From: Rhizobium ruizarguesonis
GTDB taxonomy: Bacteria > Pseudomonadota > Alphaproteobacteria > Rhizobiales > Rhizobiaceae
Length of the DNA: 64,000 bases
Direction of reading: 5' to 3'
Assembly: GCF_012349115.1 (NCBI RefSeq)
Contig: NZ_PQIG01000122.1
Span: forward strand, 62,001-126,000
Part shown: positions 59,029 to 61,895 of the stretch, piece by piece
Numbering within the stretch: the stretch's first letter is position 1
Layout of the letters: each line of letters begins with the position of its first letter
Program-made: the position numbers and the translations under genes
Notes under the pieces: generated by a model
Told to the model about the DNA's origin: nothing
Database searches by the model: none
What the model saw: the letters and a program-made list of their open reading frames with translations, nothing else

Positions 59029-61149
59029 TCATCGTTGACTGAGGCCGTCCGCCAGCCGGACGAGGCCGAGGAAATCCGACCTGTAACCGAAGGTGTCCGT
59101 GCCTCGCGATGCCGCGGCGAGATCGGCGATCGCCTGATAGGAGTAGGTGTCGACGGCCGCGACGTGGCTCAGTTTCTGGCCGAAGGCGGCGACGGCCACC
59201 GAGAAACGGACATCCTGCGGCGCGACGTCGAGGGTGGCGACCGCGTTGTTGTCGTCGACAGGCGTGGTGATGAGCGCGCTCTTGTCCTCTCCCGGCTTTT
59301 TGTAGCGCATCTTGACGAAGGCAAGTTCGCCGTGATGGGCGCTGTCAGCGGCCGCGGCCGGCGCCTTATCGGCAGCGCCATAGCGCAGGTCGTCATTCAT
59401 CACTGCCGGGCTTCCCTTGGGCGTAATCTCGTAAATCGCCGTGACGCTGTGGCCGGAGCCGATATCGCCGGCGTCGACACGGTCATTGTTGAAATCCTCG
59501 CGCTTCAACGCCCGCGTCTCGTAGCCGATCAGCCGGTATTCGGCGATCCGTTCCGGGTTGAACTCGACCTGGAACTTGACGTCGCTGGCGATCGGAAACA
59601 GCGTCGATCCGGCCTCTTCGACCAGCGTCTTTTGCGCTTCCGCCAAGGTGTCGATATAGGCAGCACTGCCATTGCCGTTCTGGGCCAGCGTCTGCATCAG
59701 CGAATCGTTGAGATTGCCCCGCCCGAAGCCGAGAACGGTGAGGAAGATGCCATCCTTGCGTCTTTCCTCGATGATGCGCTTCAAGTCCTCGTCGCTCGAC
59801 GGGCCGACATTGAAGTCGCCGTCCGTCGCTAGCATCACCCGGTTGACGCCGTCCTTGACGAAGCCCTGCTTGGCAAGATCGTAGGCCGCCTCGATGCCTT
59901 CGGCGCCGCCGGTCGAACCGCCGGGCTCCAGCCTGTCGATCGCCGAAAGGATCTTCGATTTCTCCGCCACCCGTGTCGGCGTCAACACCGTGCCGGCATT
60001 GCCGGCATAGGTGACGATCGAGACGGTATCGTCGGGTTTCAGCCTGTTGACCAGAAGCCGGAAGGCGCTCTTCAGCAGCGGCAGCTTGTCCGGCTCGTCC
60101 ATCGAGCCCGACACGTCGATCAGGAAGACAAGATTGGCATGCGGCGTGGTCGCCGGCGCAATGTCATAGCCCTTGATCGCCACATGCATCAATTCCGTGT
60201 CGTGGTTCCACGGGGTCGGCATGACAGTCACCGTCGCCTTGAAAGGTTGATCGGCATTATCGGGACCCGGCCAGTCATAGGGGAAATAATTGATCATCTC
60301 CTCGACGCGGACCGATAGTGGATCGGGCATCGCCCCGCCTGTCAACGACCGGCGGACGAAGGCATAGGACGCGCTGTCGACATCAGCGGAGAAGGTCGAA
60401 ACCGGATCCGTCGCGACGCTCTTGATCGGATTAGCCGCTGCATTGGCAAACCGCTCGCGATTGGGATCGAGCTGCATCTGGACACGCCCCTCCGCAGGCG
60501 GAGCAGGCGAGGGGGCGATGGCGGCCATCGGTTCGGCCAATTGCTGTTGGGGGGCGACGCCGGGAGCGGCCGGTACAGAGCGTTTGGCCGCCCCTAGTGC
60601 CGCGGCAGAACCCTCCGGCTTGTTCGTGAGGGCGGCGTTGGCATCGAATTCGGATGTCTGCGACGCATCGGATTTCGCGAGGTCCGGTGCCTCCTTGTCC
60701 TGCAGCGCTTGCGCGACACCAACAGATTGCTCAGCCAGGCTGTCGTTCCCGGTCGGTATTTGCGGCGCGACCGCAACCGGCTGACCGGCGGTTGCGGCCG
60801 GTTGTTTCGACGCCTCACTTTTCGAAAGGTTTCCGGCGATCTCAGTCTGGTCGACGATCGGCAATCCGTTGCGGGTCAACTCGATCGCGAGATAACCGGC
60901 GGCCGGAATGACCAGCAGCGTCGCAAGCGCTGAACCGGCGAGGAATTTCTTGTTCATGGCAGGACTCCATATCCAGTTGATGATGGAGCTTTGACGCCAG
61001 CCTTTCGCATTTCCTTGGGCTGCCGGCGCACTATTTTCTGCGGTGTCGAAGGCCTGCATCGCGGCAGCAAGCGCACGCGCACGCGCCTCCGGCGTCGCTG
61101 CCGGCGGTATCAGGCGGGAGAGCTTTTCGAGTTCCTTGTCCACGGTCAT
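59029..61149 (-). CDS. Membrane-anchored von Willebrand factor A protein (YfbK-like) with possible anti-sigma N terminus
   Basis: This is a 706-residue protein. Residues 1-66 are cytoplasmic, a span follows at about 68-90, then a long Ala/Pro/Gln-rich linker to about 225. VWA_N (SYAFVRRSLTGGAMPDPLSVRVEEMINYFPYDWP-type block near 261) precedes the vWA domain with a complete MIDAS (Asp345, Ser347, Ser349 in DVSGSM; later TDGDFN), and DUF3520 forms the C terminus. It overlaps the ECF sigma gene by ATGA. By position and topology the N terminus could hold the sigma factor at the membrane, but no zinc-finger anti-sigma motif is visible. Ligands are unknown. Confidence 0.87.
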   Translation of the reverse strand: MTVDKELEKLSRLIPPAATPEARARALAAAMQAFDTAENSAPAAQGNAKGWRQSSIINWIWSPAMNKKFLAGSALATLLVIPAAGYLAIELTRNGLPIVDQTEIAGNLSKSEASKQPAATAGQPVAVAPQIPTGNDSLAEQSVGVAQALQDKEAPDLAKSDASQTSEFDANAALTNKPEGSAAALGAAKRSVPAAPGVAPQQQLAEPMAAIAPSPAPPAEGRVQMQLDPNRERFANAAANPIKSVATDPVSTFSADVDSASYAFVRRSLTGGAMPDPLSVRVEEMINYFPYDWPGPDNADQPFKATVTVMPTPWNHDTELMHVAIKGYDIAPATTPHANLVFLIDVSGSMDEPDKLPLLKSAFRLLVNRLKPDDTVSIVTYAGNAGTVLTPTRVAEKSKILSAIDRLEPGGSTGGAEGIEAAYDLAKQGFVKDGVNRVMLATDGDFNVGPSSDEDLKRIIEERRKDGIFLTVLGFGRGNLNDSLMQTLAQNGNGSAAYIDTLAEAQKTLVEEAGSTLFPIASDVKFQVEFNPERIAEYRLIGYETRALKREDFNNDRVDAGDIGSGHSVTAIYEITPKGSPAVMNDDLRYGAADKAPAAAADSAHHGELAFVKMRYKKPGEDKSALITTPVDDNNAVATLDVAPQDVRFSVAVAAFGQKLSHVAAVDTYSYQAIADLAAASRGTDTFGYRSDFLGLVRLADGLSQR

Positions 61150-61670
61150 ACCTCTTCCTTGCCGAGCACGGTCTTCAGCCTTTTGCGCGCCTCATGGACC
61201 TGCCAGGACACGGTCGCCTCCGAGCAGCCCATGACATCGGCAGCAGCCGAATGGCTGAGGCCTTCGCCGTAAACGAGCAGCACGGCGTCGCATTGCCTTT
61301 CCGGCAAGGCGCGCACGGCGGCCCATAATTCGCTCGATAGCTCGTCGTCATGTCCGGCCGGCGCATCGGGCTGCGGTTCGGCGGCGTAGGCGCGGAATGT
61401 CTGCTCCTCTCGTGCAAGCTTGCGTCTATGGTCGCGGGCGGCGTTGAGCGTCAGCGTATAGAGCCATGTCCTGAATCGGCTGGCGCCGCGAAAGCTGCGG
61501 ATCGCCGCGCCGAGCTTGACGCAGACCTCCTGGGCGATGTCGTCGGCATCCGTGGAACTGCCAGACCATCGCCACGCCGTCGCATGGACGAAATCATAAT
61601 GGCGCGACACCAGTTGCCCGAAAGCCTCCCGGTCGCCGCCCTGCGCTCGTTCTATGAGCTCCGCGTCCAA
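61146..61670 (-). CDS. ECF-type RNA polymerase sigma factor
   Basis: This is a 174-residue sigma-70 family protein: region 2 (AFGQLVSRHYDFVHATAWRWSGSSTDADDIAQEV) and region 4 (ALPERQCDAVLLVYGEGLSHSAAADVMGCSEATVSWQVHEARKRLK) are complete, with FRGASRFRTWLYTLTLNAARDHRR between. It is translationally coupled to the vWA protein gene by a 4-base overlap. In related genomes such pairs form sigma/membrane-sensor units; target promoters cannot be named from this window. Confidence 0.92.
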   Translation of the reverse strand: MDAELIERAQGGDREAFGQLVSRHYDFVHATAWRWSGSSTDADDIAQEVCVKLGAAIRSFRGASRFRTWLYTLTLNAARDHRRKLAREEQTFRAYAAEPQPDAPAGHDDELSSELWAAVRALPERQCDAVLLVYGEGLSHSAAADVMGCSEATVSWQVHEARKRLKTVLGKEEV

Positions 61671-61895
61671 TTCCGCACCTACCCCATGCTACCAAGCAAG
61701 ATGCTATTTCGAGATTGAGACGTTTCTCGGATGACTTTCCTTGGGCCAGCGATGAAAAAAATTATCGCGAATTTTGAAAGCCGCGACATCCATGGGTCGC
61801 GGCCAGACAGATCGTCCGTGTCACAGAGGCGCATGATGAGGACAGAGTCGGCCAGGGACATGATCTGTCATCTCCCAAATCGCGAAAGGACCTCC

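Follow-up and report, generated by a model that had tools for sequence, protein, structure and literature searches.

Class I transmembrane anti-sigma factors of ECF sigma factors, such as RseA, RsiW, RskA, and EcfR, are encoded by a gene adjacent to that of the sigma factor, in an autoregulated operon, and consist of a cytosolic start, one membrane span, and an outside domain. The account in PMC7406223 gives the zinc motif of the class I anti-sigma domain as Hx3Cx2C and describes how the class II factor CnrY holds its sigma factor, with helix 1 bound to sigma4 and helix 2 to sigma2. In the rpoE6-ecfR6 pair of S. meliloti, a sigma-dependent promoter located within an ORF has been suggested as an additional source of anti-sigma transcripts; the ORF is that of the sigma factor, and the whole anti-sigma factor would be made (PMC6180224).

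The sigma/vWA gene pair

The window, meaning the whole stretch of 64,000 nucleotides from Rhizobium ruizarguesonis that was analyzed, carries on its minus strand an ECF sigma factor gene (61146..61670, TTG start) followed by a gene for a vWA protein (59029..61149). In the 174-residue sigma gene product, Pfam finds sigma70 regions 2 and 4 only (Sigma70_r2, 1.4e-17; Sigma70_r4_2, 5e-12), the mark of an ECF sigma factor, and its closest solved relatives are ECF-type sigma factors. The stop of the sigma gene and the start of the vWA gene share the bases ATGA (61146..61149), just as a preliminary description of this DNA had read them. The flanking genes on either side of the pair are on the opposite strand.

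The full-length vWA protein, or long form, has 706 amino acids. About 64 residues lie ahead of a single hydrophobic span, the predicted membrane span or signal anchor at about residues 69-92 (60874..60945), which is placed by the hydropathy of homologues and appears as a helix at residues 74-93 in a low-confidence model. It is followed by a low-complexity linker (residues 93-228; 60466..60873), the vWF_A domain (PF12450; residues 229-322; 60184..60465), the vWA domain (PF00092; residues 339-510; 59620..60135), and the YfbK_C domain (PF12034, also DUF3520; residues 515-701; 59047..59607). All three domains score above the Pfam cut-off, which makes the protein a member of the YfbK family. The protein has an intact metal site (D345-x-S347-x-S349, T413, D443), every residue of which is more than 97% conserved in 176 sequences. 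The one span, the linker, the module (first named VWA_N/vWA/DUF3520), and the intact metal site had all been claimed earlier, and Pfam, the sequence, and the alignment bear them out. Judged by hydropathy only, the protein has the topology of a transmembrane anti-sigma factor, with a cytosolic N-terminus, one span, and an outside C-terminus. The AlphaFold model of the full protein is of low confidence (mean pLDDT 58.9, pTM 0.48; pLDDT below 50 across residues 35-238), and the best 50 matches of a PDB search with it are vWA-containing proteins, including ArnA/B, inter-alpha-inhibitor heavy chain, Sec23/24, and others.

The arrangement is regular among homologues. The sigma gene is directly upstream of the vWA gene in all 80 of the closest homologues (the best 80 of at least 577 confirmed), and in each of them the vWA start falls from 4 bases before to 7 bases after the sigma stop, so the overlap is not due to chance. 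A sample of 240 loci was made up of these 80 nearest relatives and 160 further stretches around listed YfbK_C matches, and it is therefore not a random one; fragments, weak partial matches, most second copies, a contig-edge case (G045), and same-genus or same-family repeats, including eight same-genus matches, were dropped before the count. The sigma gene is upstream in 175 of these loci (type A), downstream in 16 (type B), and not within the stretch in 49 (type C, one of which is a fragment). Adding the window gives a type A set of 176 genes with 169 distinct sequences. Among the 175 type A loci, 156 vWA starts overlap the sigma gene and 19 are at most 11 bases after it, and the span begins between residues 65 and 115 (median 71). 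Two changes are needed to separate type A from the rest on a tree built from the vWA part, where the largest pure type A group holds 170 of the 175 (support 0.68). Two adjacent YfbK_C matches were seen on one contig (L131, genome G108). In some relatives, such as L038 and L058, a long ORF ending in ...DSMPDAFT is found upstream of the pair; it may be trimethylamine methyltransferase-like.

The window's own genome has one YfbK_C gene, and such a gene is found in 14 of the 61 genomes searched (its own and 60 relatives), which makes it accessory. Among the matches listed, the nearest locus is L002 (99%), and the one on plasmid pRL10 of R. johnstonii 3841 is at 95%. For pRL10, the paper on the 3841 genome gives a single sigma gene and mentions pRL100385 by name (PMC1557990). 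The vWA protein of locus L003 has a computed mass of 74.90 kDa and a pI of 4.84; these equal the values printed for the VWA protein pRL100386 (PMC7105596, Table 5), which identifies pRL100386 as the vWA orthologue in 3841. The same paper reports pRL100386 in bacteroids, with a ratio of 1.24 in a gmcA mutant (PMC7105596), and elsewhere it is listed with the cell-surface factors that are important for growing in the rhizosphere and colonizing roots (PMC11103875). In M. huakuii 7653R, a neighboring yfbK/sigma pair is up 13.9- and 15.6-fold in a bacteroid comparison (PMC3973600); its assignment to type A comes from the names, the adjacent numbering, and the fact that many Mesorhizobium loci are of type A, not from its sequence.

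Candidate promoters P1 and P2 and the predicted short vWA form

Upstream of the sigma gene lies a candidate promoter, P1, of the form CCAAGGA-N15-CGTC (61719..61744, minus strand), so that the vWA gene, like anti-sigma genes, overlaps its sigma gene behind what the sequence signals mark as a shared promoter. Among 173 type A upstream regions, 157 carry P1 in its exact form (three of the 176 genes have too little upstream DNA), and at least 10 of its 11 bases are present in 168. It is not exact in the other 16, and L140 and L141 are without a recognizable P1. When the spacing was varied from 12 to 18, exact forms appeared twice at 12 and never at 13, 14, 16, 17, or 18, and shuffled regions gave 1 exact match in 865.

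A second copy, P2, is located within the vWA ORF at codons 44-53 (60993..61018, minus strand). The residues Q45, G46, and R52 encoded here were initially read as a protein motif, a reading that was dropped upon codon counts. Codon 45 is CAA in 167 of the 167 genes with Gln (the other nine have AAA, Lys), codon 46 is GGA in 166 of the 168 with Gly (eight genes have another residue), and codon 52 is CGT, for Arg, in all 176; beyond codon 230, these codons have usages of 17.9%, 7.2%, and 11.3%, respectively. With one sequence kept per 70% identity (62 left), the counts are 59/59, 54/56, and 62/62. The frozen codons spell out the P1 element as C-CAA-GGA, five codons, and CGT-C. By this comparison, the codons of Q45, G46, and R52 are promoter DNA of the sigma type; the motif and spacing shared by P1 and P2, together with selection at the DNA level, mark both as predicted sigma-dependent promoters. 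This is a caution for other alignments as well, since “invariant residues” can be promoter DNA.

Across all 368,613 bases of the 176 type A genes, the strict form of P2 occurs solely in the N-terminal part, where 154 of the genes carry it; neither the 65 non-A genes nor the same strand of the complete stretches surrounding them contain it. The relaxed form (AAGGA-N15-CGTC) is present in 166 of the 176, always in one codon phase, and occurs once elsewhere; the other 10 do not have even this form. In 142 of 173 cases, neither P1 nor P2 departs from the motif, and their spacers agree at 38%, which speaks against a recent duplication. In L241 and L249, whose sigma factors are 50% identical to each other, both P1 and P2 have CCAAGCTT as the -35 element, and L096 has CAAAGGA in both. 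In L221 and L243, P2 is changed and P1 unchanged, which counts against co-variation. The gene after the vWA gene in the window is on the opposite strand, so P2 can serve only the vWA gene there.

A strict pattern of 30 bases was also run against 26 Rhizobiaceae genomes, which were picked for carrying a YfbK_C gene. It gave 52 matches, 49 of them at the locus by coordinates and three elsewhere (G110, G215, G273); the reversed pattern, as a control, gave 2. Exactly two locus copies are found in 20 genomes, one copy in three (G011, G449, G503), and both copies plus one elsewhere in the remaining three. The only recurrent targets found with this pattern, which is strict enough to miss weaker promoter sites elsewhere, appear to be the locus's own two promoters. 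A looser pattern has 16 matches in the window's own genome, two of which are at the locus. The other 14 were considered as targets and rejected: 13 are in a stop-free frame in which AAGGA reads Lys-Glu/Asp, probably a coincidence of coding, and the fourteenth (L261) is also in a stop-free stretch.

Placed within the vWA gene, a sigma-type promoter implies a further vWA product that is shorter and lacks the cytosolic segment. A Shine-Dalgarno sequence, GGAG (60965..60968), seen in the sequence and in homologues, is placed 7 bases 5' of an internal ATG (Met65, 60957), from which a predicted short form of 642 amino acids and 67.8 kDa (59029..60957) would be made. A Shine-Dalgarno core with an in-frame ATG 29-53 nt after the -10 element, and before the span, is present in 156 of the 166 P2-bearing genes, against a background of 46 in 7040 random positions in the same genes; if only the first ATG after the -10 element is allowed, the core is present in 139 of 166. 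Among the 156, the most hydrophobic stretch starts 4-18 residues after the internal Met, and it is preceded by 1-2 Lys/Arg in 152. Codon 65 itself is ATG in 153 of the 176 genes and GTG in 6. W61 (TGG, then AG) and M65 would then be explained as ribosome site and start. Two products are expected from the vWA gene: the long form, which includes the putative anti-sigma segment, and a short form that lacks it and is induced by the sigma factor. A short form also means that the vWA module is probably an effector as well as a sensor. The preliminary description, which proposed a possible anti-sigma factor with a vWA sensor, had missed the internal promoter and the shorter product it implies.

One could also suppose that only the short protein from Met65 is real, that codons 1-64 are an untranslated or non-functional open leader, and that the sigma factor is controlled in some other way. 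The presence of a promoter, Shine-Dalgarno sequence, and ATG within the ORF agrees with this, as does the mostly exported look of vWA homologues without an upstream sigma gene, since a hydrophobic stretch begins by residue 60 in 52 of the 65 and a lipobox-like motif is present in 37. It is nevertheless unlikely, because residues 7-35 show conservation of the protein while their synonymous codons vary normally, and because none of the 175 type A loci has a stop codon in this frame, which runs from a start overlapping the sigma gene, or at most 11 bases from its stop, through the promoter and Shine-Dalgarno sequence (codons 36-64).

The cytosolic segment

The stretch ahead of the span was at first described as a cytoplasmic start of 66 residues. 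Its length stands, at about 64 residues, but it is not one unit. On the codon evidence, residues 1-66 are two things: a segment of about residues 1-40 (61030..61149), which is conserved at the protein level, and a stretch of about residues 44-65, whose conserved positions are best explained by action at the DNA or RNA level as promoter, ribosome site, and start codon. In the segment, L7, L10, P16, A22, A26, A30, F34, and D35 are conserved among the 176 type A genes with nearly the synonymous codon freedom expected from the rest of the gene, and this free variation means that residues 7-35 are held as protein. Two positions nearby behave differently at the codon level and are not explained by P2: E6 is GAA in 101 of 102 type A genes (codon 6, 61134-61132) and E38 is GAA in 109 of 114 (codon 38, 61038-61036).

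A profile of residues 1-40 matches 175 of 175 type A proteins, the set from which it was built, and 0 of the 65 non-A vWA homologues, with the whole open frame searched and hits up to E<=1 allowed. Two helices (residues 3-11 and 20-39) are predicted in the segment by the low-confidence AlphaFold model. Residues 1-65 contain no Cys and no His, and thus no zinc motif, as had been noted before; they have no match in Pfam at E<=1, so that neither a recognizable ASD nor the Hx3Cx2C motif, either of which would indicate class I (ASDI), is found in them. Against PDB chains, the segment has chance-like sequence matches only (best E 0.59). The region of residues 7-35 is likely to be the anti-sigma segment, on the strength of these comparisons, and the locus is best read as a sigma factor paired with an anti-sigma factor whose periplasmic part is a vWA module. 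The earlier proposal of the vWA protein as anti-sigma partner is partly supported by a segment that tracks the upstream sigma gene (175/175 vs 0/65), is conserved as protein, is encoded in overlap with or next to that gene, and has two helices in the low-confidence model; no known anti-sigma domain matches it.

That missing match also agrees with mere co-transcription, in which the sigma factor drives an envelope protein and has its own regulator elsewhere, as does coevolution. Over 176 sigma/vWA pairs, with an effective number of 74 at 80% identity and 101 at 90% identity, coevolution with the sigma factor does not single out the N-terminal segment, apart from one pair of residues. By mutual information, the segment takes part in 25 of the top 100 sigma pairs vs 11.5 expected from its columns, but the membrane span is likewise raised (15 vs 5.1). 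In mean-field DCA the segment is at 29 vs 26.6 expected. The presence of the segment with an upstream overlapping sigma gene, its absence otherwise, and its conservation at the protein level all count against co-transcription and leave it quite improbable. The pair formed by sigma R14 and vWA D35 ranks second by both measures. In L239 the charges of this pair are swapped (E with R), a possible contact; the score and one swap are too little to lean on.

The segment may have begun as a small anti-sigma gene that was joined in frame to the vWA gene downstream of it, by way of the promoter and leader of the latter. Such a fusion is the likely origin, and the frame kept open through codons 36-64 indicates that it has been kept. 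In the type B loci (L127, L130, L132-L135, L143, L145-L148, L150-L154), the order is vWA, sigma, and an overlapping separate protein: in 16 of 16, a separate protein fills the slot after the sigma gene, with its start 4-31 bases ahead of the sigma stop, and the vWA gene is separate and upstream. These separate proteins mostly have a cytosolic start and one span, as judged by eye. Three of them had no Pfam match above the cut-off, the segment profile matched 0 of the 16, and an hhalign comparison with the segment gave a probability of 2, so homology is not established. By position only, type B is probably the unfused arrangement of the system, with the separate protein as the anti-sigma candidate.

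The proposed circuit and known systems

Taken together, the locus is probably a self-contained ECF sigma circuit, with an autoregulated sigma factor, the long vWA form as its anti-sigma factor, and a short form made from P2. The sigma factor would transcribe its own operon from P1, giving sigma factor and, from the overlapping start, the full-length single-span vWA protein. The first 40 or so cytosolic residues of the long form would hold the sigma factor as an anti-sigma peptide, and the periplasmic vWA/YfbK part would sense a ligand or the state of the envelope. Binding or loss of binding at this part, or proteolysis, may release the sigma factor. Once freed, it would also fire P2, whose transcript begins past the anti-sigma segment and, with its own ribosome site and ATG, would give a short membrane-anchored or exported vWA protein, presumably the effector. 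One gene would in this way encode the restrainer as well as a copy of its sensor that serves as effector. What sequence comparison establishes of this circuit is the pairing, the autoregulatory P1, the intragenic P2, the start signals of the short form, and the constraint on residues 7-35.

The sequence comparison made here agrees with either sign of the effect, and the cytosolic segment could bind the sigma factor and yet activate or tether it as a co-activator, with no inhibition. We consider this a minor possibility, as topology, gene order, and autoregulation are, from general knowledge, those of ordinary anti-sigma pairs; in its favor, RskA has been called a dual activator-inhibitor (PMC7509140). 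If the long form is indeed an anti-sigma factor, the short form made by sigma could feed back in trans by competing for the ligand or partner of the long form and thereby resetting it, since the two share the span and the periplasmic module. This extension is rather doubtful; if true, the cell would gauge the supply of its own effector.

In the literature covered, as listings and text passages, no report was recognized of the pair as sigma/anti-sigma or of the internal promoter. The P1 motif, and its second copy P2 within the vWA gene, appear to be new. They provide a testable wiring diagram for a sigma/vWA pair that occurs in many Alphaproteobacteria, among them rhizobia, and in which a sigma-type promoter is preserved inside the coding sequence of the sigma factor's probable antagonist and the two products have different expected roles. 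The locus also offers a single-gene handle on the function of YfbK-type proteins.

The vWA protein has the same vWF_A/VWA/YfbK_C module as the rest of the YfbK family, such as E. coli YfbK and the lipoprotein forms. The 65 sampled YfbK-type forms without an upstream sigma gene have neither the segment nor the promoter. The class II factor CnrY has a short cytosolic part with two helices, and so does the segment here, where the helices are predicted only; there is no sequence match between them. To our knowledge, CnrY has no vWA part, and we know of no embedded promoter in it. The two-helix prediction fits class II anti-sigma factors as a resemblance, not as membership. Class I anti-sigma factors have the same gene order and topology as the vWA protein, as described for EcfR (PMC6180224). 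Unlike them, the vWA protein has no ASD match in Pfam and no zinc motif, its outside part is a YfbK-type vWA module, and within its gene a predicted short form has a promoter and start of its own. Compared with the internal promoter of rpoE6-ecfR6, P2 lies inside the putative anti-sigma factor itself, and its transcript would skip the cytosolic segment.
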